This document shows positions 40,316 through 54,868 of a stretch of 58,009 bases of DNA, piece by piece. Position numbers and translations under genes: made by a program. Origin of the DNA: Phycisphaerae bacterium. GTDB taxonomy: Bacteria; Planctomycetota; Phycisphaerae; Sedimentisphaerales; Anaerobacaceae. Within the stretch, counting starts at the first letter, position 1, and the number at the start of each line of letters is the position of its first letter. The DNA lies in the NCBI GenBank assembly GCA_030619925.1, contig JAUXAL010000013.1, positions 1 to 58,009 on the forward strand, written 5' to 3'. The notes beneath the pieces are model-generated. The model saw only the letters and a program-made list of their open reading frames with translations. It made no database searches and was not told the DNA's origin.

Positions 40316-40527
40316 ATTGTGGGTTTTTGCTGATAAAAACCATTTTTTTGTAACAAAACGGCATTCTCAAGCGTCTGATATGGTAGTTATGGGTCTCGCT
40401 GCACACGAAAATAATCGTGTGCCTGAGCGTATTTGGTGCGGAGTAGACATAAGCTCTTTGTTTATGGGGACTTGTGATTTTAAGGGAATATTGTTCTTGA
40501 GGCAGCCGGACAGGAGTGAACTCGCGG

Positions 40528-42234
40528 ATGAATAAGAAGAAGTTAGGGCAGTTACTTTGTGAAAAAAGGTATTTGGATGAGTCTAACCTTGAATTCGCGC
40601 TTGCGGAACAAAAGATTGAGCATCGGCGTTTGGGCCAGATTTTGTTAGAGCTTGGCTATGTAACGCAAGCTCAGTTAAATGAAGCACTTGCGATTCAGGT
40701 GGGGATAGAGAGGATAGATTTGACCGATGTTTCAGTAAGCGGTGAAATCGTTGCCCTTGTGCCGGCAGAACTGGTCAGCAAATACAGTATTTTGCCGTTA
40801 CGGCAGGAAGACAGCCGATTGGCCGTGGCGATGACGGATCCGTTTCAGCCGCGGGTCATTGAGGATTTGCGGCTGGTAACCGGCTGCTCGGTGCGGCGGT
40901 ATTACGCTGACCCGATAGAGATGGAAAATGCGATAATGAGATTTTACGGCAGCAATGTCGCAAGAATGCTGGATAACCTTGTTCCGGCTGAACAGCGGAC
41001 AGAAACTGATGAGTTAGACAACGGAGACTACTCGCCTGCCAAGCTGCATGAGCTGGCGAGAGAGCCGTCTTTAGTTAATCTTGTGAATCTGATAATACTG
41101 GAAGCGATTGAGGTTCGTGCGAGTGATATTCACATCGAGCCGTTTGAGCATCAGGTAAAGATAAAGTACAGACTTGACGGTATGCTTGTGGAGAAGACGC
41201 CTTCGTCGAAGCGACTTCAGGCGGCGATCATTTCGCGAATTAAGATTATGGCGGACATGAACATTGCCGAACGATTTGTGCCGCAGGATGGGCATATCGA
41301 ATTTGCCGGTAAAAACGGCAGGGTTGATATTCGTGTCTCGACCGTCCCCACGGTACACGGCGAAGCTGTTCAGTTGAGGCTTCTGGACAGGACGACATCA
41401 TTGATAGGGCTCGAAGATTTGGGAATGAACGCTCAGTGTCTCAAAGGTTTCGATCAATGTCTGCATAAGAATCACGGGATTGTACTTGTTACCGGCCCGA
41501 CCGGCTGCGGAAAGACAACAACGCTTTATGCGGCGTTAAATAGGATATACTCGCCGTCTGTGAAAATGATAACGATAGAGGACCCTGTCGAATATCAGCT
41601 TGAAGGTATTAACCAGATGCCGGTCAATCCGAAAAGGGGGCTTACCTTTGCCACGGGCCTGCGGCATATACTCCGTCACGACCCGGACATTGTGATGGTG
41701 GGGGAGATCCGAGACCGAGAAACCGCTAATATAGCAATTCGCGCGGCGTTGACCGGACACCTCGTTTTCTCGACACTTCACACTAACGATGCATCTGGGG
41801 CAATTACAAGACTGATTGATATGGGCGTTGAGCCGTTCCTCTTGGCCAGTTCACTTGAAGCGGTGTTAGCTGAAAGGCTGATTCGTAAGATTTGTCCAAA
41901 CTGCAAAGAGCCGTACAAGCCGGACGAAAATCTAATCAGGAGCTTAAATGGCTCACTAAAGATTGAATCTGGTACGAAGTTTTATCATGGTGCTGGTTGT
42001 AATGAGTGCGGCCAGACGGGCATGAGCGGGAGGACGGGCATATTTGAGCTGCTTAGGATAACCAGCAAAGTGCGGGAATTGATAGCGGCAAAACCGACGA
42101 CCGACCAGATCGTAAAGGCGGCCCCGGCGGATCATATAACTATGGAGCACGATGGTATTGCCAAAGTATTAGAAGGTATCACAACTCCTGAGGAGGTTAT
42201 TAGGGTCGCAAAGAGTATTGGTGAGGAAGAATGA
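40528..42234 (+). CDS. gspE: Type II secretion ATPase GspE
   Basis: 568 residues from ATG at 40528 (AGGAG 11 bases upstream; an earlier GTG at 40516 overlaps that site). N-terminal MshEN/GspE-N domain (KKLGQLLCEKRYLDESNLEF, GQILLELGYV), then the secretion ATPase: Walker A GPTGCGKT at 323-330, Asp box ITIEDPVEYQLEGINQ, Walker B DPDIVMVGEIRDRETA, His box FSTLHTNDA, and a tetracysteine zinc motif CPNC...CNEC near 455-495. It powers pseudopilus assembly from the cytoplasm. First gene of an operon that runs to gspD. Confidence 0.96.
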   Translation: MNKKKLGQLLCEKRYLDESNLEFALAEQKIEHRRLGQILLELGYVTQAQLNEALAIQVGIERIDLTDVSVSGEIVALVPAELVSKYSILPLRQEDSRLAVAMTDPFQPRVIEDLRLVTGCSVRRYYADPIEMENAIMRFYGSNVARMLDNLVPAEQRTETDELDNGDYSPAKLHELAREPSLVNLVNLIILEAIEVRASDIHIEPFEHQVKIKYRLDGMLVEKTPSSKRLQAAIISRIKIMADMNIAERFVPQDGHIEFAGKNGRVDIRVSTVPTVHGEAVQLRLLDRTTSLIGLEDLGMNAQCLKGFDQCLHKNHGIVLVTGPTGCGKTTTLYAALNRIYSPSVKMITIEDPVEYQLEGINQMPVNPKRGLTFATGLRHILRHDPDIVMVGEIRDRETANIAIRAALTGHLVFSTLHTNDASGAITRLIDMGVEPFLLASSLEAVLAERLIRKICPNCKEPYKPDENLIRSLNGSLKIESGTKFYHGAGCNECGQTGMSGRTGIFELLRITSKVRELIAAKPTTDQIVKAAPADHITMEHDGIAKVLEGITTPEEVIRVAKSIGEEE

Positions 42235-42271: not shown

Positions 42272-43534
42272 TTGGGCCAGTTTTCTTACAAAGCAGTTGA
42301 CAGAGGTGGCGGACACGTTAGGGGAACTATAGAGGCCTCTGACCGCAGAAGTGCTGTTGTTGCCCTGGCTAATAAGGGTCAGTTCGTAACAGATTTGGCC
42401 GAAGCGGCTCAGACGCCGGGCGTCAACGGTGGCGAGAAGGCGGCGCTGGACCTGTCCAGGTTTGTGAGGTTTGGTTCGCGAAGAGTTAGCAGCAAAGACG
42501 TTCTGGCCATGACCACGCAGTTGAGCACGGCTTTGCGAGCGGGACTTCCACTGCTCAACGGGCTTGAGCTTATTCGTGAACAGCAGCACAAGGTGGCGAT
42601 GAAAGAAATGATGGGTCAACTTGTGAATGCGGTCAGTTCCGGGCAGTCACTTTCGGAGGCTATGGCTGAGCACGAGAAGGTTTTCAGCCCGTTGTATCTG
42701 TCAATGATAAGAGTCGGTGAGACAGGGGGAATCCTCGATGAGACATCGGCTCAGCTGGCAGGAATATTGAGTAGGGATGAGAAGATAAAAACAAATATGA
42801 AAAATGCCTCGGCGTATCCTATCTTCGTTTTGTGCGTCGGCCTTGCGTCGGTGGTTATCATAATAACATGGATATTGCCGACTATAATAGGAACGATAGG
42901 CGAGAGCGGTGTGTTACTGCCCTGGCCGACAAGAATGCTATTAGGAATGAGCGAATTTACGAAAGCTTTACTTACGAAGGTGTACGGATGGATTATTCTC
43001 GTTCTGATTGGGGCGGGGCTGTATTACCTGATAAGGTGGACGAGAACTGAGGGCAAAATCAAGTGGGATACTTTTAAGCTGAGAATACCTGTGTTAGGTT
43101 CGGTTTTGCGGACGATAGCGGTGGGCAGATTTGCAAGGACACTTGGAGCGCTGACCAAAGGAGGCGTTATAATTTTGGAGGCCCTTAGTGTTGTTCGTGA
43201 TACGCTCGGTAATGAATTATTGGGCAGGGAAATCGATGCCGTGGCTGAAAAGGTCAAGCGTGGTGAATCGTTGGCCGAGCCGTTAAGTGAGTCGGGATAT
43301 TTTCCGCCCCTGCTTGTGCAAATTGTCTCGATAGGAGAACAGACAGGCAAGCTCGATGAATTGCTGCTCAATGCCGCTGATACTTTCGATACTGAGGCGG
43401 ACTCGGCGATAAACAGATTTATGGCGATTTTCCCGGCGCTCTTGATATTGCTATTGGCTTTAGTAATAGGGTTCATAATAGTGGCAACTCTGCTGCCAAT
43501 CGTTGTAATGACTGTCGGCGGAGGGGTGCTTTGA
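42272..43534 (+). CDS. gspF: Type II secretion inner-membrane platform protein GspF
   Basis: 420 residues from TTG at 42272 (GAGG seven bases upstream). T2SSF domains are duplicated: LAMTTQLSTALRAGLPLLNG...GETGGILDE and FARTLGALTKGGVIILEAL...GEQTGKLDE. Three membrane helices (about 185-212, 238-255, 385-412). It forms the platform on which the pseudopilus is built, in contact with GspE and GspL. Confidence 0.95.
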   Translation: MGQFSYKAVDRGGGHVRGTIEASDRRSAVVALANKGQFVTDLAEAAQTPGVNGGEKAALDLSRFVRFGSRRVSSKDVLAMTTQLSTALRAGLPLLNGLELIREQQHKVAMKEMMGQLVNAVSSGQSLSEAMAEHEKVFSPLYLSMIRVGETGGILDETSAQLAGILSRDEKIKTNMKNASAYPIFVLCVGLASVVIIITWILPTIIGTIGESGVLLPWPTRMLLGMSEFTKALLTKVYGWIILVLIGAGLYYLIRWTRTEGKIKWDTFKLRIPVLGSVLRTIAVGRFARTLGALTKGGVIILEALSVVRDTLGNELLGREIDAVAEKVKRGESLAEPLSESGYFPPLLVQIVSIGEQTGKLDELLLNAADTFDTEADSAINRFMAIFPALLILLLALVIGFIIVATLLPIVVMTVGGGVL

Positions 43535-45850: not shown

Positions 45851-47131
45851 GTGAAAGAATCGGGGAGCGAAAGTTTAGCTGAAAGAATGGGTACTGATGG
45901 TGACAAAAAGGGGCTTGTTCTTGTAGCAGTGTTGTGGGTAGTAGTGGTGCTTACGATCATTGTTGCGGTCCTGGGGCGCAAAAGTCGGCTCGATACAAAG
46001 GTTTGCTTCGCCAGGATAGAGGGGCTTAGGTGCAAGTGGGCTTGTCGCGCAGGGATAGAGACAGCGATTGGGGTGCTCAACGAGGACACAAGGGAAAGTG
46101 ACTGCCTGACGGACCTGTGGAGTGATAACGACGAAGATTTTAATGATATTCTGTTAGAGAGGTGCTCGTTTACGACCCGGGTCATTGATGAGGCGAGTAA
46201 ATTAAATGTGAATGCTGCTACCAAAGGGCAACTTTTGGAGTTGCCGGAGATGCTCGAAGAAATTGCAGATGCGATAATCGACTGGCGGGACGAAAATGAT
46301 ACGCCGAGCGAGGGAGGTGTCGAAAGCGGATATTATGAGGAGATGCCGTTTGGATATATGGCCCGGAACGGTCCTTTCAGGACAATACGCGAGCTGCTGT
46401 TGGTCAAGGATGTTATGGAAGAGTTTTTCTATGGAGAAGACACGAACTTCAACGGCCAATTAGACTACAATGAGAGAGACGGCGACAAAAGCCCACCCGC
46501 CGATGACGGAGATAGTGAGCTGGATCTGGGATGGATTGCGTACCTGACGTGCTACTCCTATGACAACAACAAAGATGCCAGCGGGAATCAGAGGGTTAAT
46601 ATCAATGAGGGTAGTGCGAAGCAGCTGGAAAAGTCTCTGGGCATAAGGAACGATAAGGCCGAGTTGATTGTGAAGAATCGTGGGGATGGATACAAAAGCA
46701 TTGGCGATTTGATAAGTCCTCTGGGTTTGCCAACGTTTTCTCAGATAGCGGACAGAATAACGATAAGTAGTGAGGAAAAATTGCCGGGAAAAGTAAACGT
46801 CAATACGGCTCCGGAGGTTGTTCTGGCCGCTTTGCTGGGTGGTGACGACACGGCTTACCAAATTGCCGAGAATATAATCACCTATAGAGAGAGTTTGATG
46901 TATGGGATCGAAAGCATTGGAGAGCTGATGCAAGTGGGGTCGATGAACATCGATGCTTTCAAGAACATTGCGGGTTCTATAACTACGCGGTCTGATGTTT
47001 TTACAATTCGTTGTGTTGCGACGGCCGACAGAAACGGCTTTGCTGGAGCAACATTGGAGACAGAAGCGGTGGTGGATAGGAGTTCGACACCTTGTAAGAT
47101 ACTCTACTGGTATCAGGGGACAAGTAATTGA
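45851..47131 (+). CDS. gspK: Minor pseudopilin GspK with EF-hand-like insertion
   Basis: 426 residues from GTG at 45851 (an ATG at 45887 is possible). The class III signal DKKGLVLVAVLWVVVVLTII lacks Glu5, as expected for the tip protein GspK. SAM-like helix-hairpin domain: NVNAATKGQLLELP, IADAIIDWRDEND, GPFRTIRELLLV, then RVNINEGSAKQLEKSLG and VNVNTAPEVVLAALLG. Between them is a canonical EF-hand loop DTNFNGQLDYNE (residues about 199-210) followed by an acidic stretch, which would bind calcium. It caps the pseudopilus. Confidence 0.9.
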   Translation: MKESGSESLAERMGTDGDKKGLVLVAVLWVVVVLTIIVAVLGRKSRLDTKVCFARIEGLRCKWACRAGIETAIGVLNEDTRESDCLTDLWSDNDEDFNDILLERCSFTTRVIDEASKLNVNAATKGQLLELPEMLEEIADAIIDWRDENDTPSEGGVESGYYEEMPFGYMARNGPFRTIRELLLVKDVMEEFFYGEDTNFNGQLDYNERDGDKSPPADDGDSELDLGWIAYLTCYSYDNNKDASGNQRVNINEGSAKQLEKSLGIRNDKAELIVKNRGDGYKSIGDLISPLGLPTFSQIADRITISSEEKLPGKVNVNTAPEVVLAALLGGDDTAYQIAENIITYRESLMYGIESIGELMQVGSMNIDAFKNIAGSITTRSDVFTIRCVATADRNGFAGATLETEAVVDRSSTPCKILYWYQGTSN

Positions 47132-47184
47132 TCATTGATTATTCTCTGGGCTGTCTGTGGCCTATGTAGTGAAAGTTGAACGAA

Positions 47185-48642
47185 ATGAATAATGACAAGA
47201 TAAATATGAAGACCCCGCTGTCCGTGATAGCAATGGCACAAGAGGAAAGCCGGTTCAAAGCTGTAGAGCTTCGAAGAAAGGGCGGGGCCTTTGAAGTGCT
47301 CTGGACAAAGAGCAGCAAAGGCACCGATGCGGACTGGCGGCTTTTTGCAGCCGAGTGTGGCTTGTCCGTTGAGCCAGCAGCGCATGTAGATGTCGATGGT
47401 AACAGGATAGTTGTGGTTGGCTTTAATTCGGCAGCGGTGGCTTTTTATCGCATTGGTGTGCCTGCGGTGGGAGAAGAAGAGACCGCAGCGATAGTCAAAT
47501 TACAGGCTGAGACCCAGCTACCCTTGCCGGCCGAGCAAATGGAGCTGGCCTGGCGGGTCGGCCAGATGCGGAACGGGCAAGTGGCCGTCACCATGGCAGC
47601 GGCAAGAAGAGAACAGCTGCAAGGATTTGTAGAAAATGTGTGTGATTTTGAGCCGACAAAAATACTATTAGACTGCGAGGGGATAATAGAAGCATGGAGA
47701 GCGCTCTTTTCCGCAGAGGAAAAAGACACTGTGGTTGTCAGTATGGCAGCGCGAAATACGCAGGTTTGTCTGGCTGAGGACGGGCGATTGAGCAATGCTG
47801 TGGTCCTGGATATGGGGACAGAGGATTTGGCGGAACAAACGGAGACTATCGAAAGATTTGTCCAGGATATGAGGAGTGTGTTGGACTTGTTTGGTTATGC
47901 CGAGCCAGCGAAATTGCCGGTTTTTGTGCTGTCGGACGGCAGTGCTGCGTACGTAGGTATAGTTTCTTCTCTTAGGTCGGCAGGATTGAATGCCAGAGCA
48001 GCCTTGCCGGACATTAAGAAATTAAGGGCGCAGACGGAACTTCAGGTTGAAGAGGCCTACGAATACCGTGTGCCGATAGGTCTTGCGCTTATGGCACTTG
48101 AGGGGCGCACGAACGAGCTTAATATTTTTGAGCGTCTGTACCAACCGGCCAAGAAGGAGGAGAAGAGGCATTGGTTGTATTCACCAAAGGTGACATGCGC
48201 GATTGCATCGGTGATGCTGGTCCTGCTGGTTGTCGTCTCTTATGCAGTGGATGTGGCCAGTCCGGGTGCAATCGAAAAGCGTTTGGAGGCGTCCCTTTCG
48301 GATACAGATATGAATATGCTAATGCAGCGGCAAAAACTAATCAAAACGATTGCATTGCAAAGGCCCGATTTGCTTGACCTTTTAAATCAAGTGGTCGAAA
48401 GCGGTGATAGAGGGATAAAGCTGGAGAGTTTGTATTTTAAGAAGGGCCAGCTGGTGACCATAAACGGCCAGGCACCCGGCAATGAGCAGCTATACAAATT
48501 TGAGAAAAGTCTACAGGACAGAACCAGTATAAAAGACGTGAAGATGACCTCGACCAGAGACACCAGAAGCTCGACCAGAGACACCAGAGGTAGGGGGCTC
48601 CGCTTCACTATAACTTTTCATTACAGGAATTTTACCAAATAG
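47185..48642 (+). CDS. gspL: GspL/PilM-PilN-like assembly protein
   Basis: 485 residues from ATG at 47185. The N-terminal part has an actin-like PilM/GspL fold (SVIAMAQEESRFKAVELRRK; AAIVKLQAETQLPLPAEQME; FEPTKILLDCEGIIEAWRAL; LRSAGLNARAALPDIKKL), a single membrane helix is near 335-355 (VTCAIASVMLVLLVVVSYAV), and the C-terminal periplasmic part resembles PilN. It links GspE to the inner-membrane platform. Near the end a 21-bp tandem duplication (48549-48590) encodes two STRDTR units. Confidence 0.85.
   Translation: MNNDKINMKTPLSVIAMAQEESRFKAVELRRKGGAFEVLWTKSSKGTDADWRLFAAECGLSVEPAAHVDVDGNRIVVVGFNSAAVAFYRIGVPAVGEEETAAIVKLQAETQLPLPAEQMELAWRVGQMRNGQVAVTMAAARREQLQGFVENVCDFEPTKILLDCEGIIEAWRALFSAEEKDTVVVSMAARNTQVCLAEDGRLSNAVVLDMGTEDLAEQTETIERFVQDMRSVLDLFGYAEPAKLPVFVLSDGSAAYVGIVSSLRSAGLNARAALPDIKKLRAQTELQVEEAYEYRVPIGLALMALEGRTNELNIFERLYQPAKKEEKRHWLYSPKVTCAIASVMLVLLVVVSYAVDVASPGAIEKRLEASLSDTDMNMLMQRQKLIKTIALQRPDLLDLLNQVVESGDRGIKLESLYFKKGQLVTINGQAPGNEQLYKFEKSLQDRTSIKDVKMTSTRDTRSSTRDTRGRGLRFTITFHYRNFTK
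48549..48590 (+). repeat. 21-bp tandem duplication in gspL
   Basis: CTCGACCAGAGACACCAGA(A/G)G twice in tandem with one mismatch, encoding STRDTRS and STRDTRG. Confidence 0.9.
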
Positions 48643-48657
48643 AGAATTAGAGAAGCT

Positions 48658-49176
48658 ATGATAGAAAAATTAAGCCAAAAAGATATACGGATGTTGAAGA
48701 TTGGTGCTGTGTGTGTAGCAGCTATCCTGGTGTTTGTGTTTGCATCAAAGTGGCTTGACCACTGGACACAGGCGAGAAAATCGCTTGCTGAGCTGCAGGA
48801 CAAATTAGAGCTTCTCGATGTGGGCAAGGCTAAGCAAGCAGGCTTGATGTCAATTGTGCCTGCGTTCGAGATGCCCCAGAAGGAAGAGACGCAAAAGTTT
48901 CTGTTCAGAGATAAGCTTAACGAACAACTAAAGAAGGCGGGAATAAGTAGCAAGCCTCTGCAGGTTGTGTCGACCGTAAAATCTCCGCAGGCCGGGTATA
49001 AGCTATTGCGTTTGAAATGCAGCGCCAAATGCAGGTTCGGGCAGGTGCTCGATTTGCTTGCCAGCCTGAAAGAGAATCCTTATCTGGTCGGCATCGAGGA
49101 AATGCGTATAAAGTGCGATTCAAAAAAGCCGCAGGAAGTAGACTTGGATCTGACGGTGTCAACATTTGTGAGGTGA
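48658..49176 (+). CDS. gspM: GspM/PilO-like inner-membrane protein
   Basis: 172 residues. Short cytoplasmic start (MIEKLSQKDIRMLKIGAV), one membrane helix (about 14-33), a coiled coil (WTQARKSLAELQDKLELLDV) and a ferredoxin-like periplasmic domain, the layout of GspM/PilO. Sequence families here are weak; identification depends on operon position after gspL. Gap of 3 bases to the next gene. Confidence 0.78.
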   Translation: MIEKLSQKDIRMLKIGAVCVAAILVFVFASKWLDHWTQARKSLAELQDKLELLDVGKAKQAGLMSIVPAFEMPQKEETQKFLFRDKLNEQLKKAGISSKPLQVVSTVKSPQAGYKLLRLKCSAKCRFGQVLDLLASLKENPYLVGIEEMRIKCDSKKPQEVDLDLTVSTFVR

Positions 49177-49179
49177 GAA

Positions 49180-49971
49180 ATGCAGATTATGAAACTTGAT
49201 TATCTTAATTATCTGAAAGAAAAGAAAGAGGTTGTATCAGTTGTGCTGCTTGGGGTTTCAGCATTTTTGGCAGTTTTAATTTTGATTAAGGTAGGGAGCT
49301 TCTTTGCGGCCTCGGCCAGGGCAGAGCGCTTAGTTAAGATGGCTATTGCGCAAAATAACACGGATGCCAAAGATATGGAAAAGCATCTTGCCAAATCCAA
49401 AGCGATTGCCAGCGAGTTAAAGAGGGAAAATTTGTTTGCGCCGCCTCCACCGAAGCAACATCCTATTAAAGAAGTATGGGGTATCTTCGGTGATGAGGTG
49501 CTGATAAAAAACAAATGGTACAAAGTCGGTGACACGGTAGGAGACGCGAAAATTGTGGCAATCGGACCTACTTCGGTCAAGATCGAGTGGGACGGAAAGG
49601 AAAAAGTCTTTGCCCCTATTGATGCGGTGGTTGCTTCGGCGCCCAGTGGGCCGAAGCGTGCAGTACCAGCAAAGGAAGTAGCCAAGGCCGGTGCCGAGAC
49701 GGTCTCGGTTCAGCTCGAGGTAAGGCCAATGTTTGGCCGTGGAGACAGAGGGCGGGGCGGCCCGGGAGGTGGGCCAGGATTCGGGGGGGGATTCGATGGG
49801 ATGAGGGAAAGATTCCAGAATATGTCTGAGGCAGAAAGGCAAAGACTTGTGGCCGAAATGCGCGAAAGAAGAGAGAGATTCCAGAATATGTCTGAGGCGG
49901 AAAGAGAACGATTTAGAGCCGAGATGCGCGAAAGATTTGGCGGCGGACGGCCGTCAGGTGGCAGACGGTGA
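49180..49971 (+). CDS. GspC/PilP-like protein with RERFxNMSExER tail
   Basis: 263 residues; GAGGTG five bases before the ATG. One membrane helix (about 19-41), then a GspC homology-region-like domain at about 95-150: IKEVWGIFGDEVLIKNKWYK, VGDTVGDAKIVAIGPTSVKI, a fold that docks on the secretin. The C-terminal 70 residues are Gly/Arg-rich (RGRGGPGGGPGFGGGFDG) and contain two units RERFQNMSEAERxRxxAEMR. The same units occur in the next gene, the Hint protein. GspC orthologues normally lack such a tail. Confidence 0.78.
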   Translation: MQIMKLDYLNYLKEKKEVVSVVLLGVSAFLAVLILIKVGSFFAASARAERLVKMAIAQNNTDAKDMEKHLAKSKAIASELKRENLFAPPPPKQHPIKEVWGIFGDEVLIKNKWYKVGDTVGDAKIVAIGPTSVKIEWDGKEKVFAPIDAVVASAPSGPKRAVPAKEVAKAGAETVSVQLEVRPMFGRGDRGRGGPGGGPGFGGGFDGMRERFQNMSEAERQRLVAEMRERRERFQNMSEAERERFRAEMRERFGGGRPSGGRR

Positions 49972-49998: not shown

Positions 49999-51012
49999 AT
50001 GAAACAGTCAGGAACAACAACAGTATTTGTAATAGTCTGTGTTGCGGTGCTTCTTGGATCTTGGGGGATTGGTCTATGCATCAGGCAAGTCAGGTTCCGC
50101 AGCGCCGGCATCGAATCCAAAGCAGGTTCCGAGCCCGAGATGAGCGCCGAGATACAAAAGCCAGGTGAGGCAGTTGAGGCTGAAAGAGAACCCGCCGAGA
50201 TGGCTCAATTTCGGCCCGAGAGAAGACCGATGCCTGGCGGTGAAGGCAGAAGGCCGTTCGGCGATCTTTCTGAAGAACAAAGAGAAAGGATGAGGGAGCG
50301 ATTTGAAAATATGTCTGAGGAAGAAAGGCAAAAGTTTAGGCCCCAAATGCGTGGAAGATTTGGCGGTCGACGGCCACAAGGCGGTGATAGATTTGGCGAT
50401 CTCTCTGAAGAAGAAAGGGCCGAAAGAGAGAGCATGAGAGAGAGATTGGAGAATATGTCTGAGGAGGAAAGGGAAGAATTTAGAGTTCAAATGCGCGAAA
50501 GATTTGGCGGTCGACGGCCGCAAGGTGACGGAGAAGGTGGCAGACGGCGACCAGGTGCCAGACGCCGGCCAGGTGACAGCGGTGGCGGCGCACCTCCACC
50601 GAAGGGCAGAGCCTGCTTTGTTGCTGAGACCCCTGTGTGGGTAGACGGCAAGCTCGTACAAATTTCTAAAGTCACCACGGGCCAGACAGTCGGCAAGAAG
50701 TTCTGTGGGTCATCGTCTCTGGAGCAGGTTCAGGAGCACGAGGGAACGTTCGAGTGTCGTGACATAGCGCTCGAGAGCGGAAATACCATCGGCGTTGTCG
50801 ATGCACACTGCTTCATGCTCGATTCCGGACGATGGATCGCGGCACAGAACTTGACAAGCGGCCTAAGATTGAAAACGCTGACCGGCACTGTCGGTATCAA
50901 AAGCGTTACAAAAAGAGCCGTGCCTTATACCGGCAAAGTCTACAATCTGAAGGTTAAAAGCTCAGACCAGTACATGGTAGGCAAAGATGTGGTAATCGTG
51001 CGTGATTATTGA
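49999..51012 (+). CDS. Membrane-anchored Hint (Hedgehog/intein) domain protein in the T2SS operon
   Basis: 337 residues. One N-terminal membrane helix (about 6-28), a stalk of two to three charged units RERFENMSEEERQKFRPQMR with FGGRRPQG spacers (about 85-175), an Arg/Gly/Pro linker (176-203), then a Hint domain from 206 to the end. Hint evidence: block A ACFVAETPVWVDG with Cys206, block B VVDAHCFMLDSGRWIAAQNL with His270, and terminal block VYNLKVKSSDQYMVGKDVVI. It ends in VRDY, without the His-Asn of splicing inteins and without an extein. That predicts Hedgehog-like N-S shift and self-cleavage or thioester formation at Ala205/Cys206, not protein splicing. It lies between the GspC-like gene and the secretin, in the same transcript. 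No described T2SS component has this domain, to my knowledge. Confidence 0.82.
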   Translation: MKQSGTTTVFVIVCVAVLLGSWGIGLCIRQVRFRSAGIESKAGSEPEMSAEIQKPGEAVEAEREPAEMAQFRPERRPMPGGEGRRPFGDLSEEQRERMRERFENMSEEERQKFRPQMRGRFGGRRPQGGDRFGDLSEEERAERESMRERLENMSEEEREEFRVQMRERFGGRRPQGDGEGGRRRPGARRRPGDSGGGAPPPKGRACFVAETPVWVDGKLVQISKVTTGQTVGKKFCGSSSLEQVQEHEGTFECRDIALESGNTIGVVDAHCFMLDSGRWIAAQNLTSGLRLKTLTGTVGIKSVTKRAVPYTGKVYNLKVKSSDQYMVGKDVVIVRDY

Positions 51013-51023
51013 TGCGGTGCTTC

Positions 51024-51058
51024 GGTGCGTGTTCGATCTGCTCATAGAACACCGCACC
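51024..51058 (+). terminator. Hairpin between the Hint gene and gspD
   Basis: GGTGCG-TGTTC pairs with GAACACCGCACC (one bulge) around a 12-base loop. No T-run follows; it may be an attenuator or an mRNA-processing/stability element rather than a true terminator. Confidence 0.4.
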
Positions 51059-51124
51059 GGCCCGTAGCGCCGACCAGGCGGAAGACAGTAAGAGAATAAT
51101 TGGATTTAGAATGAGGTGAATAAA

Positions 51125-54100
51125 ATGGAACGGTCAAAATTAAAAATATCGATAGTAGTTGGTCTCGCAGCGGTTCTTATTATCTGGAGGGTTGGCTTTT
51201 ACCCCCCAGTGCCTGAACAAGCAGAAAAGCCAGGTGAAACCGAAGTAGCTACCAAACCCGGTAAACCTGGTGAGGTTCAAAAGCCAGGTGACGCAAACGA
51301 GCCTATGGTGGCCTTTGACGTTGATAAACCCGGAAGATTAGCTGATGTTAATGAGCCCGGAAGATTAGCTGCCGTTAGGGAGCCGAAGAAGCCTGTTGAG
51401 CCAAATGAGCCGATGGAATTTGTGAACCTCAAAAATGTGGAGATGAAAACCATTATTGAGAAGCTTGCAGATTGGACCGGTAAGGTGATTATTCCCGCCG
51501 ATGAGTCTATGAAACAAAGAGTGACCATATACGCGCCGGGTAAGTTGCCGAGAAGTAAGGCTCTTTCGCAGATTTACAGTGCGCTGCGTATGAAGGGCTA
51601 CGTTGCCGAACATACCGATGACACGATTTATCTCAAACCTATTGCCGATCAAAAATTCGGCGAGGTTCCCACGATACTTGCTGATTATCCTCTGGCGAAG
51701 ATCGAAAATAAAGACCAGGTGGTTCAAAAGTTCTTTAAGTTAAGGAACTACAGTCCTTCGCAGATGGGCGAGATTATTGTGCCGTTGATCGGCGAGTACG
51801 GCTATGTGACCGCTGATGAAAGCACCAGCAGTTTGTTGGTGATTGATACGGTTACGAATCTGATGCGTATTGGTCGGATTATCGAACAGTTTGATGCGGT
51901 CAAAGCCGAGCAAACCGTGACGGAGATTTTTCAAGTCTATAATGGTGACCCTTCTGAGATTGTTGAGTTGTTGGAGACACTATTAAGTGAGGGCAGTTTA
52001 AGCAGGTCAAGGGGTTCCGGCTTCAGGGGTCCCGGCGGAGGCCGTGGGCCCGGTTCTTCGTCAAGACCTAGTCCTACGAGCAGTACTTCATCCAAAAAAA
52101 GCAGTACCAAGGGTGCGGCAACTTCGATCACGGTCGGGACAACCCAGGCGCCGATCGTACTTATCCCGGAACCGAAGCACAATTGGATTATTGCAAAAGC
52201 ATCACCTGAGGATATAAAGATAATTGGCGAGTGGATTAAGAAGCTTGACAAGCCGGTTTCAACAGTACTTGTTGATTATCCGCTTGCGAGCATTGAAAAC
52301 AAGAATCAGGTAGTTCAGAAGTTCTTTAAGTTAGAGAACTTCAGTCCCCAGCAGATGGGTCAGGTCATTGGACCTTTGCTCGGCGAGTCCGGCTATTTAA
52401 GTGCTGAGGAAAGTACCGGCACTCTGTTGGTGATTGACACGGTTGAGAATCTGATGCGCATCGAGATGATTATCGCACAGTTTGATGTTCCCGAAGCTGA
52501 GCAAACCGTGACGGATATTTTTGAGATTTATAATGGTGACCCTTCTGAGATTGTTCAGTTGTTGAGGATGCTTCTAAGTGCCGACGGTACCGGTGGAAGC
52601 GGTCTCGGCCGAAGCAGTAGCAGTCGAAGCAGTTACGGTCGAAGCAGTTCCAGTCGAAGCAGTTCCAGTCGAAGTAGTTACGGTCGAGGCGGCATGTCCT
52701 GGTCTCCGTCGAGATATGGTTCCAGGACCGGGTCGTCGTCTTCGGTCGTCGTTGGGACCAGCCAGTTCCCGATTGTGCTTATCCCGGAGCCGAAGCGCAA
52801 GTGGATTATTGCAAGGGCATCGGCTGAAGATATGAAGCGGATTGCCGAGTGGATAGAGAAGCTCGACCAGAAAGAGCCGATCGAACAAGAATACGAAACA
52901 ATTTCAATAGGATATGCTGATGTCAGCGAACTGGCGGGCCGTCTTAACGAGGCGCTGCAGCAGATGCCGGGAAGCGAATTACAGGCGAGTGTTCTTATTC
53001 AGCCATTGGTCCAGGCAAGGCAGATTGTGATCTTCGGCAGAGCGGATATGCGCGAAATGGTCAAGAAGCTTATTGCAGAAGTTGATATTCCTGCGGGTAT
53101 GTTTGAAACAAGGGTTTTCAAATTGAAATACGCTGACCCTGATGAGATCAAGGAGAACCTCGAAGGTCTTTACGAACAAGAAGCCGGTAGTTTTCGTAGT
53201 TACGGTATTTCAAGGTCATCATATAGCTCACGCACGGTTGAATCTCAGGAAACAGTAAAAGTAATATCATTTTCGACGATGCAGCAGGTAACTGTGATTG
53301 CCTCGCCTGAGAATATGCTCAAGATCGCTGAGCAGATAGTCGAATGGGACATTCCGCTCGATGTGGCTAAAGTAAAGCCGAGAATAATTGAATTGCGTAA
53401 TTCCGATCCGATTGAGATGGCTGATTTGCTGACTACGCTTTTCAGCGAAGAAAGCAGTAGAGGCATGTCGATCTTCGATATTTTGTTCGGCACAGGTACT
53501 GAGGAAAAGGCAAAAATTGTCGGGCCGCTCTATGGCCAATTGACCTTTGAAGATGTGCCGGGGACAAAGAAGATTATCGTAATAAGCAAGATTCCCGAGG
53601 CATACGATGTTATTGAGGAGTTGATACGTGACCTTGACAAGCAGGAGATGGGCGAAGTGCCCAAGGTCGTAACGCTCAAGTACGCAAACCCGGAAGACCT
53701 CAGCGAACGTCTAAATGCCATGTTCTGCGAGGCGGGAACGTCGGCCGTGATTGTGCGTAGCGAAACGGGCCTGAGCGAGTACTCGATGGAAGAATCAGAG
53801 AACACAAGCTCCGGGGACAGCACTACCAGCCAAAACCAATATACGCCATGGTGGTCAGGGTCCGGCGCTCGCACCGGCATCGGTGAAGAGATGCCGATCA
53901 GCAACGTTATAGGCAGGATACGCTTCGTTCCAGAGCCCCGCATCAAAGCTATTCTTGTTCTTGCCCCTCCGGAGTTTATGCCGGAGATAGAAAAGCTGAT
54001 TGAACAACTCGACATACCCGGCAAACAGGTGTTGGTAAAGGCGATAATTGTAGAAGTTACTCACAGTAGTATGACCTCTCTTGGCGTACAATTGGCGACG

Positions 54101-54868
54101 AACCAGGAGGCGTTTGGTGCTCTGGAAGAAAATGCAATCACTGCACTCGGCCAGCTTGCCCTTCTTGCAACCCACGGCTCAATAACATCTAATCAGGGTG
54201 TTACTACAGGAACAGGGACAATACTTGATGTAGGGACGAATGTCTATGGCCTGATTGATTTCTTAGTTAAGAAAACTAATGCAAGGATTCTCAATCAACA
54301 GACACTGTGGACAGAAGACAACGAAGAAGCGAGTTTCTTCAAGGGTGAGAAAATTGCATTCATGACAAGCGTTCAAGCCGCGACGGGTGTAGCTGGGGCC
54401 ACGCAGAATTTCGAATTTGAGAAAGTAGGTATGACTCTCGCGGTCAGGCCAAGTATTACTCCCGAAAACAACGTGGACATGATTATAAATATTTTGATGT
54501 CGCAGCTTACCATAGAACTTGTGAACAACCAACCGGTTAGGACCGAGATGGAGACAAAAACCAATATGATAGTAAAGGACGGCCAAACAGTTATGCTCGG
54601 CGGCATCCTCTTCCAGGAAGACAGGGTTATCGAACGAAAGGTTCCGCTATTTGGTGATGTACCTGTGGTTGGCGGCCTGTTCCGCCACAACGAAACTATG
54701 GCAGCCAACAATGAAATGCTCGTGTTTATTACACCATACGTAATAGATGATCCCAGCAATCTACCTCCTGAAACAATAGAGGAAATAGAACGTCCAAAGG
54801 AAAAGCTGAAAAACATCCGAGAACAGTTAGAAACCACTATGGAAAAGCTTGAGCGGGAGCTTCCGTGA
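51125..54868 (+). CDS. gspD: Type II secretion secretin GspD with duplicated N-domains
   Basis: 1247 residues from ATG at 51125 (GAGGTG six bases upstream). Membrane/signal segment about 4-22, then a Pro/Lys linker with KPGE words. N0 domain FVNLKNVEMKTIIEKLADWT. NolW-type domains follow: unit VVQKFFKLRNYSPSQMGEII...TDIFEIYNGDPSEIVQLL occurs twice (about 195-385 and 395-580), each followed by a low-complexity Ser/Gly/Arg segment and IVLIPEPKxxWIIAxASxED. The secretin barrel lies at about 980-1220: VYGLIDFLVKKTNARILNQQ, KVGMTLAVRPSITPENNVDM, VKDGQTVMLGGIL, VPLFGDVPVVGGLFRHNE. Twice the length of usual GspD (about 650-700). It forms the outer-membrane channel. Confidence 0.93.
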   Translation: MERSKLKISIVVGLAAVLIIWRVGFYPPVPEQAEKPGETEVATKPGKPGEVQKPGDANEPMVAFDVDKPGRLADVNEPGRLAAVREPKKPVEPNEPMEFVNLKNVEMKTIIEKLADWTGKVIIPADESMKQRVTIYAPGKLPRSKALSQIYSALRMKGYVAEHTDDTIYLKPIADQKFGEVPTILADYPLAKIENKDQVVQKFFKLRNYSPSQMGEIIVPLIGEYGYVTADESTSSLLVIDTVTNLMRIGRIIEQFDAVKAEQTVTEIFQVYNGDPSEIVELLETLLSEGSLSRSRGSGFRGPGGGRGPGSSSRPSPTSSTSSKKSSTKGAATSITVGTTQAPIVLIPEPKHNWIIAKASPEDIKIIGEWIKKLDKPVSTVLVDYPLASIENKNQVVQKFFKLENFSPQQMGQVIGPLLGESGYLSAEESTGTLLVIDTVENLMRIEMIIAQFDVPEAEQTVTDIFEIYNGDPSEIVQLLRMLLSADGTGGSGLGRSSSSRSSYGRSSSSRSSSSRSSYGRGGMSWSPSRYGSRTGSSSSVVVGTSQFPIVLIPEPKRKWIIARASAEDMKRIAEWIEKLDQKEPIEQEYETISIGYADVSELAGRLNEALQQMPGSELQASVLIQPLVQARQIVIFGRADMREMVKKLIAEVDIPAGMFETRVFKLKYADPDEIKENLEGLYEQEAGSFRSYGISRSSYSSRTVESQETVKVISFSTMQQVTVIASPENMLKIAEQIVEWDIPLDVAKVKPRIIELRNSDPIEMADLLTTLFSEESSRGMSIFDILFGTGTEEKAKIVGPLYGQLTFEDVPGTKKIIVISKIPEAYDVIEELIRDLDKQEMGEVPKVVTLKYANPEDLSERLNAMFCEAGTSAVIVRSETGLSEYSMEESENTSSGDSTTSQNQYTPWWSGSGARTGIGEEMPISNVIGRIRFVPEPRIKAILVLAPPEFMPEIEKLIEQLDIPGKQVLVKAIIVEVTHSSMTSLGVQLATNQEAFGALEENAITALGQLALLATHGSITSNQGVTTGTGTILDVGTNVYGLIDFLVKKTNARILNQQTLWTEDNEEASFFKGEKIAFMTSVQAATGVAGATQNFEFEKVGMTLAVRPSITPENNVDMIINILMSQLTIELVNNQPVRTEMETKTNMIVKDGQTVMLGGILFQEDRVIERKVPLFGDVPVVGGLFRHNETMAANNEMLVFITPYVIDDPSNLPPETIEEIERPKEKLKNIREQLETTMEKLERELP
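52609..52692 (+). repeat. 15-bp tandem repeat in gspD
   Basis: Five to six units of TCGAAGCAGTTCCAG or TCGAAGCAGTTACGG, encoding SSSSR/SSYGR pentapeptides in the second low-complexity segment. Confidence 0.9.

Follow-up and report, generated by a model that had tools for sequence, protein, structure and literature searches.

Hint domains are known as inteins, as the tails of Hedgehog proteins and as the cutters of pretoxins. In the window, by which we mean the whole analysed stretch of 58,009 nucleotides, the gene between a GspC-like gene and the secretin gene of a type II secretion system (T2SS) encodes a stalk protein that ends in such a domain. The question raised by this locus is whether the Hint domain is a part of the secretion machinery or a guest on one of its proteins, and what it may do there. 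What emerges beyond this locus is that Phycisphaerae have a transferable Hint module at protein C-termini, here on a T2SS stalk. In the openly licensed PMC literature we found neither a description of such a module nor, in agreement with an earlier note on this DNA, a described T2SS subunit with a Hint domain.

The Hint domain and its place in the operon

The T2SS genes of the window are arranged as follows:

40516..42234, + strand: GspE-like ATPase
42272..43534, + strand: GspF-like protein
45851..47131, + strand: GspK-like protein
47176..48642, + strand: GspL/PilM-PilN-like protein (PilN 23.9 bits against a cut-off of 22.8; pilM below its cut-off)
48658..49176, + strand: GspM-like protein (profile matches below the cut-offs)
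49180..49971, + strand: GspC-like protein (NF041515, E 1e-4, far under its cut-off)
49999..50595, + strand: carrier part of the stalk protein, aa 1-199, with an N-terminal hydrophobic anchor followed by charged FENMSEEER/GGRR repeats
51116..54868, + strand: secretin GspD

The stalk is a protein of the T2SS operon, its gene being conserved between gspC and gspD. The C-terminus of the GspC-like protein has repeats of the FQNMSEAER/RERFGG type in common with the stalk, and several relatives have a tandem pair of GspC-like genes (L091, L173, L175, L177 and L179). Given the common repeats and the tandem genes, the GspC-like protein and the stalk may interact.

The C-terminal part of the same open reading frame comprises:

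50596..50613, + strand: conserved junction PPKGRA ahead of the catalytic Cys, aa 200-205
50614..51012, + strand: Hint domain, aa 206-337, including the stop
50614..50616, + strand: Cys206, predicted thioester nucleophile (47/47 family rows, 5/5 outgroup rows)
50797..50799, + strand: Val267, where the block-B TxxH has its Thr (in 47 family rows V 32, A 13, I 1 and T 1; outgroup T 5/5)
50806..50808, + strand: His270, the block-B His (47/47 family rows)
51001..51009, + strand: Arg335-Asp336-Tyr337, with Arg-Asp replacing His-Asn, then one aromatic residue and the stop (D 47/47, R 42/47; outgroup H-N 5/5)

The earlier note had read the C-terminus as a Hint domain with Cys206 and His270 intact but without the terminal His-Asn, and this reading is borne out. 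Structure prediction gives the horseshoe Hint topology for the C-terminal domain with high confidence, a profile search yielded PDB matches for Hint, and both residues are present in every one of the 47 rows. A phmmer search of the whole protein against the PDB gave no match. PT-HINT (PF07591) scored 21.0 bits with the full-length protein and 24.5 bits with the domain alone, below the Pfam gathering score of 27.7; the relative L124 exceeds that score with 29.2 bits. A chance match to Hint was considered and rejected on the strength of fold prediction and profile.

The residue counts refer to an alignment (A2) made without L115 (a run of N) and L094 (truncated), in which the 47 family rows are at least 42% identical to the window, except for L134 with 28%, and five PT-HINT rows form the outgroup. 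Over all 52 rows, with identities to the window down to 23%, just four columns never change: Cys206, Phe207, His270 and Asn316. Asp336 is likewise unchanged in the 47 family rows. The count for the block-B His was taken from the alignment column, a regular expression having caught 35 of 48. The N-terminal Cys/Ser and the block-B His by which the Hint superfamily is recognised are present in 47/47 rows each, together with the predicted horseshoe fold; the block-B Thr, which is usual but not strictly defining in the superfamily, is missing, with Val in the window and Thr in 1/47. Ahead of Cys206, the KGR of the junction is nearly fixed in a set of 120 proteins (K202 119/120, G203 118/120, R204 118/120) and looser in the broader 47-row set (K 44/47, G 32/47, R 43/47). 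At the other end, Arg-Asp plus one residue forms the C-terminus in 240/240 listed matches (the best 120 of 862 and the best 120 of 293). Because the residues of the N-terminal step are kept except for Thr, while a fixed Arg-Asp stands where the residues for Asn cyclisation and splicing would be, we read the changed active-site end as something other than decay. In this Hint subfamily, which occurs on many kinds of probably exported protein, Arg-Asp, an aromatic residue and the stop have taken the place of His-Asn.

Stalk genes with and without the Hint module

The earlier note had also linked the chemistry of the Hint domain to secretion. That the domain is part of the working of this T2SS is not supported by the relatives. 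At 21 loci of 19 genomes, the slot between gspC and gspD holds a Hintless stalk of 150-218 aa in 13 cases, four of which (L179, L180, L183 and L184) rest on weak matches with E 1e-4 to 1e-7. Stalk and Hint occur together in one (L091 of genome G546), the slot of L178 holds an unlabelled 167-aa ORF, L182 and L187 are without a stalk, and L174, L185, L186 and L188 are uninformative. The stalks of five further genomes (L219-L223) are Hintless as well; the pattern used for Hintless alleles did not catch L170, and L224 and L225 stood outside the analysis. Among 120 listed stalk homologues of 311 found, the Hint is present in 17 and absent in 103. Genomes G774 and G772 have Hintless stalks though they encode other Hint proteins, and the nearest Hintless stalk is 88-89% identical to that of the window (89% over 197 aa), with the C-terminal end GARRRENDLE. 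Within one genus, g275, the allele of G546 has the Hint and those of G774 and G791-G794 are without it. In the survey of related T2SS operons suggested by the note, the gene is thus mostly found and its Hint mostly not. Since relatives have Hintless stalks and the same module ends many non-T2SS proteins, the Hint is probably a portable module that has come to rest on a protein of the T2SS. Stalks that occur naturally in both forms, Hint-bearing and Hintless, are a ready-made experiment on the effect of a terminal Hint on its carrier.

At the DNA level, the following elements were distinguished around the Hint:

50545..50564, + strand: left copy of an imperfect direct repeat of ~20 bp flanking the insert, in a repeat-rich region (matches overlap on L219)
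50565..51067, + strand: putative inserted module that comprises a Gly/Pro linker, the coding sequence of the Hint with its stop, and a 3′ stem-loop (about 20 bp of uncertainty at the ends)
50582..51150, + strand: block near-identical to the same place in G546
51013..51066, + strand: 3′ stem-loop carried with the Hint (-27 kcal/mol, z -3.92)
51068..51109, + strand: stretch beyond the present ORF that reads RRPGGRQ*ENNWI*, a putative remnant of the 3′ end of the ancestral stalk

In the Hintless alleles that were aligned, no more than about 40 bp separate the stalk stop from the gspD start, and the stop is just ahead of the gspD ribosome-binding site. The window and L091 have instead the linker, the Hint, its stop and the stem-loop region, and only then the stretch that we read as the leftover of an old stalk end, RRPGGRRQENN*; at the same position L091 has RRSGERQ*ENNWI*. 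The match of this stretch to Hintless ends was reached in 0/2000 shuffles for each of L219, L221 and L222, in 23/2000 for L220 and in 14/2000 for L173. The left and right matches to the empty allele L219 overlap by about 20 bp (L219 positions 114-134); such repeats may or may not be a target-site duplication, the surrounding DNA being repeat-rich. The Hint thus apparently came to the stalk gene as a DNA insertion of ~500 bp with its own stop and 3′ stem-loop. Insertion rather than deletion, as well as the mode of DNA movement, is what we infer from the sequences: a Hintless ancestor is favoured because the Hintless form occurs in more distant genera, and single events may run either way, since deletion between the repeats could turn a filled allele Hintless. 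In GC content the module is unremarkable.

When the stem-loop DNA was searched for in the window's own genome, the only other match lay immediately downstream of a prepilin-Hint gene (C121:6231-6280); G546 has it in the same two settings. G757 gave a marginal match (E 0.09), at none of its Hint loci, and four other genomes gave none. This recurrence points to a prepilin-Hint gene as the source of the module. Judged by eye, 3′ DNA resembling that of the window also stands behind L092, L105 and L117. Folding of the 3′ regions of five genes gave z-scores of -3.92 and -4.25 for two and weak ones of -1.1 to -1.2 for three, which does not support a common 3′ fold. The capture by the stalk would be old, considering that dS is 0.94-1.52 in comparisons with five Hints on prepilins or DUF4190 proteins from G000 and G546.

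The window and G546 belong to two different genera, and yet their alignment is 95-100% identical per 60 columns over 50639-51118, through the stop and the intergenic DNA, fading by about 51150. Identity is 88% in the two lines that hold the block edges and 37-83% in the lines outside. Between the two, dS is 0.09 for the Hint, against 0.76 for GspL, 0.76 for GspM, 0.92 for GspC (second copy of L091), 0.92 for the stalk computed without the Hint and 0.85 for GspD, which argues for a recent passage between genera. In dN/dS, the Hint (0.13-0.22) does not clearly fall below the flanking genes (0.17-0.29). In 1275 of 1275 pairs among 51 Hint-bearing stalks, the Hint is more alike than the stalk. A tree of stalks (36 Hint-bearing ones, of 58 by a looser pattern, 100 of the 103 Hintless and seven loci), drawn from low-complexity sequence with a short search, has 19 changes of Hint presence, 10 of them forced by starred branches; on the Hint tree, the stalk Hints form nearly one group, with 2 changes. 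Both fit the filled allele having spread through homologous exchange and possibly having been lost at times. An assembly or binning artefact was rejected in view of the 58 Hint-bearing stalks found by pattern among 343 proteins, and of the presence of the block in two genomes with a flanking dS of 0.76-0.92. One Hint-bearing stalk, P0066, is named as from a Candidatus Zixiibacteriota MAG (2.6 Mb contig), by either inter-phylum transfer or a misnamed bin.

The module on other carriers

With residues 190-337 as query, 862 of 980 candidate proteins of about 185-590 aa matched at E<=0.01; the best 120 of them are stalk proteins, prepilins and zinc-ribbon/DUF4190 proteins. A second query, itself a long carrier, matched 293 proteins at E<=0.001, nearly all of the 120 listed being annotated PF08480, often together with beta-helix models. 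Whole genomes matched at E<=0.001 in 24/392 of a phylum sample, 32/398 of a class sample and 20/100 near relatives, counts that include weak pretoxin-type matches. Below 1e-15, all genome matches come from the window's own taxonomic family, except for one in G651, from another family of the class. This locus (L134:6001-12273) encodes an RHS-repeat protein of 2091 aa with a Hint of the same type and the end VVRDW plus stop, a possible link between pretoxin Hints and the Phycisphaerae Hint module.

Of 48 loci with E<=1e-15, the window not counted, 20 encode prepilins and 1 a stalk; the other 27 include FGE-type, PQQ, VIT-VWA, LRR, subtilase and beta-helix proteins. Under a lenient test, in which every start codon in the first 150 was tried, 43 of the 44 carriers whose N-terminus is complete have a hydrophobic N-terminal segment, and the Hint carriers of these bacteria are likely exported proteins. 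The window's own genome has four Hint genes: besides that of the stalk, there is one for a DUF4190 protein and a tandem pair for prepilins. Eight genomes have a prepilin-Hint locus with common neighbours: L109 (4958-8376), L090, L097, L099, L106, L110, L119 and L132. The recurring neighbours of Hint genes are the surroundings of such orthologous loci (up to 11 loci) and Hintless prepilins. No common processing enzyme was seen among the neighbours, in a weak test of 15 neighbour groups that included spurious reverse-strand ORFs.

A common origin of the Hint across carriers is indicated by the similar 3′ DNA, by the carrier-label changes on the Hint tree and by the module edges in the paralogues of G653. 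On the best Hint tree, built from few columns, the carrier label (L094 left out) changes 15 times against a shuffled mean of 36.5; starred branches force changes to at least 6 for prepilins and at least 5 for other exported proteins. Genome G653 has four carriers, all different, with one module: identity is 55-95% per 60 columns within it and 33-55% behind the stop, and at the front edge it goes down to 28-53% in comparison with the prepilin carrier. The three non-prepilin carriers also have part of the preceding YWRIDE region in common, with up to 72%.

Known systems and possible functions

Mini-inteins without a homing endonuclease show presence/absence polymorphism at one site in close relatives and low dS across divergent hosts. 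The module is like them in both respects; unlike them, it is terminal rather than internal, has neither the Asn nor a +1 nucleophile, and brings its own stop and 3′ stem-loop. The T9SS CTD and PEP-CTERM are C-terminal sorting tags. They, too, are single C-terminal modules found on many carriers and on a secretion-system protein, but here the tag is itself folded like an autoprocessing enzyme, and in principle a sortase is not needed. The T9SS CTD is described in PMC5121618.

Set against bacterial intein-like (BIL) domains of types A and B and PT-HINT (PF07591), the module ends in Arg-Asp, one aromatic and the stop rather than in His-Asn with a variable or toxin part downstream, has lost the Thr of TxxH, is found on carriers other than toxins and travels with its 3′ stem-loop. 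According to PMC7765530, type A BILs are defined by a C-terminal His-Asn, for which the module has Arg-Asp, and type B BILs lack the C-terminal motif. Type B is otherwise recognised by intein motifs and N-terminal cleavage; compared by description only, the motif pattern of the module fits in part (Thr lost). The toxin part behind the Hint of PT-HINT polymorphic toxins is absent, one residue following Asp336. Where inteins have a C-terminal Asn (or Gln/Asp) plus a +1 nucleophile, the module has Asp, Tyr and the stop; according to PMC7664689, Asp alone could serve as the C-terminal residue of an intein, but the +1 residue of the module is no nucleophile. The same source states that the Hints of Hog domains use only the first step. 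Hedgehog Hog has a sterol-recognition region behind the Hint, whereas the ORF here ends at residue 337 without one; the module also differs in being bacterial and in having Asp at the terminal Asn position. Burglin (2008) reported a divergent C-terminal Hint-like domain in Myxococcus, Stigmatella, Reinekea and others, some with signal peptides (PMC2362128). Compared by description only, those proteins are likewise bacterial with a C-terminal Hint-like domain; they are from other taxa and have a constant upstream region, unlike the module.

We favour, with a probability of roughly 60%, that the Hint module was inserted into the stalk gene and that the Hint cuts itself off the stalk via a Cys206 thioester. 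Judging from its N-terminal anchor and the T2SS context, the stalk would be held in the inner membrane and would expose its C-terminus on the non-cytoplasmic side. There the Hint, whose fold is predicted with high confidence, would fold, and His270, going by the invariant residues, would drive the N-S acyl shift of the Ala205-Cys206 bond. Attack of a nucleophile on the thioester, be it water or an envelope amine or alcohol, would then leave a stalk ending in ...PPPKGRA and let the Hint go. C-terminal cleavage and splicing are not expected, because Arg-Asp replaces His-Asn and only one residue follows. Processing would leave a stalk much like the Hintless orthologues, and the insertion would for that reason be tolerated in the way of a mini-intein, which fits the patchy presence of the Hint and its recent passage between genera. 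Self-removal appears most likely since it uses the kept residues and explains related stalks with and without Hint; a Hint that cleaves itself off its carrier, as is likely, would be a transferable, self-removing protein tag. The block-B Thr helps the acyl shift in inteins, and its absence from 46/47 rows counts against self-cleavage; moreover, disulfides formed outside the cytoplasm by the conserved extra cysteines (Cys253, 43/47) could obstruct the site. Plain N-terminal cleavage does not explain the KGR ahead of Cys, the invariant Asp336 or the terminal aromatic.

The main rival, and the bolder reading, is transfer to an acceptor. Hedgehog passes its C-terminus to cholesterol, and the Hint might similarly pass the carrier C-terminus to a lipid or envelope amine, anchoring carriers and tethering the stalk to the envelope. 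We give such a covalent sorting tag about one chance in four, although its placement at the extreme C-terminus of many kinds of proteins, mostly with a hydrophobic N-terminal segment and including the beta-helix, FGE-type, VIT/VWA, subtilase and PQQ kinds, would suit it, as would the KGR and an invariant Asp336 that might activate a nucleophile. A region like that for sterol recognition is absent, the domain ending one residue past Asp336, the weak neighbour test found no partner gene, and a patchy presence among close relatives would be unexpected of an anchor that alters where the stalk ends up. A somewhat wider formulation, which we put forward tentatively, is a mobile Hedgehog-like C-terminal unit (Hint with Cys/His/Asp site, stop and stem-loop) at the 3′ ends of exported-protein genes that sorts carriers covalently, by release or by thioester hand-over to an envelope acceptor; this would be sortase-free sorting by intein chemistry, with the tag also on a T2SS component. 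If carriers are indeed released or attached via a thioester, the module would be a bacterial counterpart of Hedgehog processing acting on many proteins at once.

The lost Thr and His-Asn, and a dN/dS like that of the neighbours, would suit a Hint without catalysis that is retained for binding, as an adaptor or receptor in the periplasm, with Cys206 and His270 in a structural role; we consider this rather unlikely, given that these are two of only four invariant columns. Least credible, and very improbable, is a dedicated T2SS device in which the Hint processes secretion substrates or the apparatus. The conserved operon position of the stalk gene and the many prepilin-like carriers speak for it, but the natural Hintless alleles, including those of G774 and G772, have already weakened it, and a T2SS-specific subunit was rejected on the same counts (13/21 loci and five more genomes).

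Besides Cys253, a Cys271 adjoining the block-B His occurs in 18/47 rows, and a disulfide could gate the Hint active site after export. In five family rows, L124 (4286-7828), L125, L126 and L128 of G653 and L133 of G670, the end reads LDC or VDC and is followed by a short tail, of 14 residues of the CSKKTWEILEEARK type in G653 and of 7 residues in L133; their carriers are beta-helix, subtilase and prepilin proteins. With Asp-Cys at the junction, these members might even splice or transfer.
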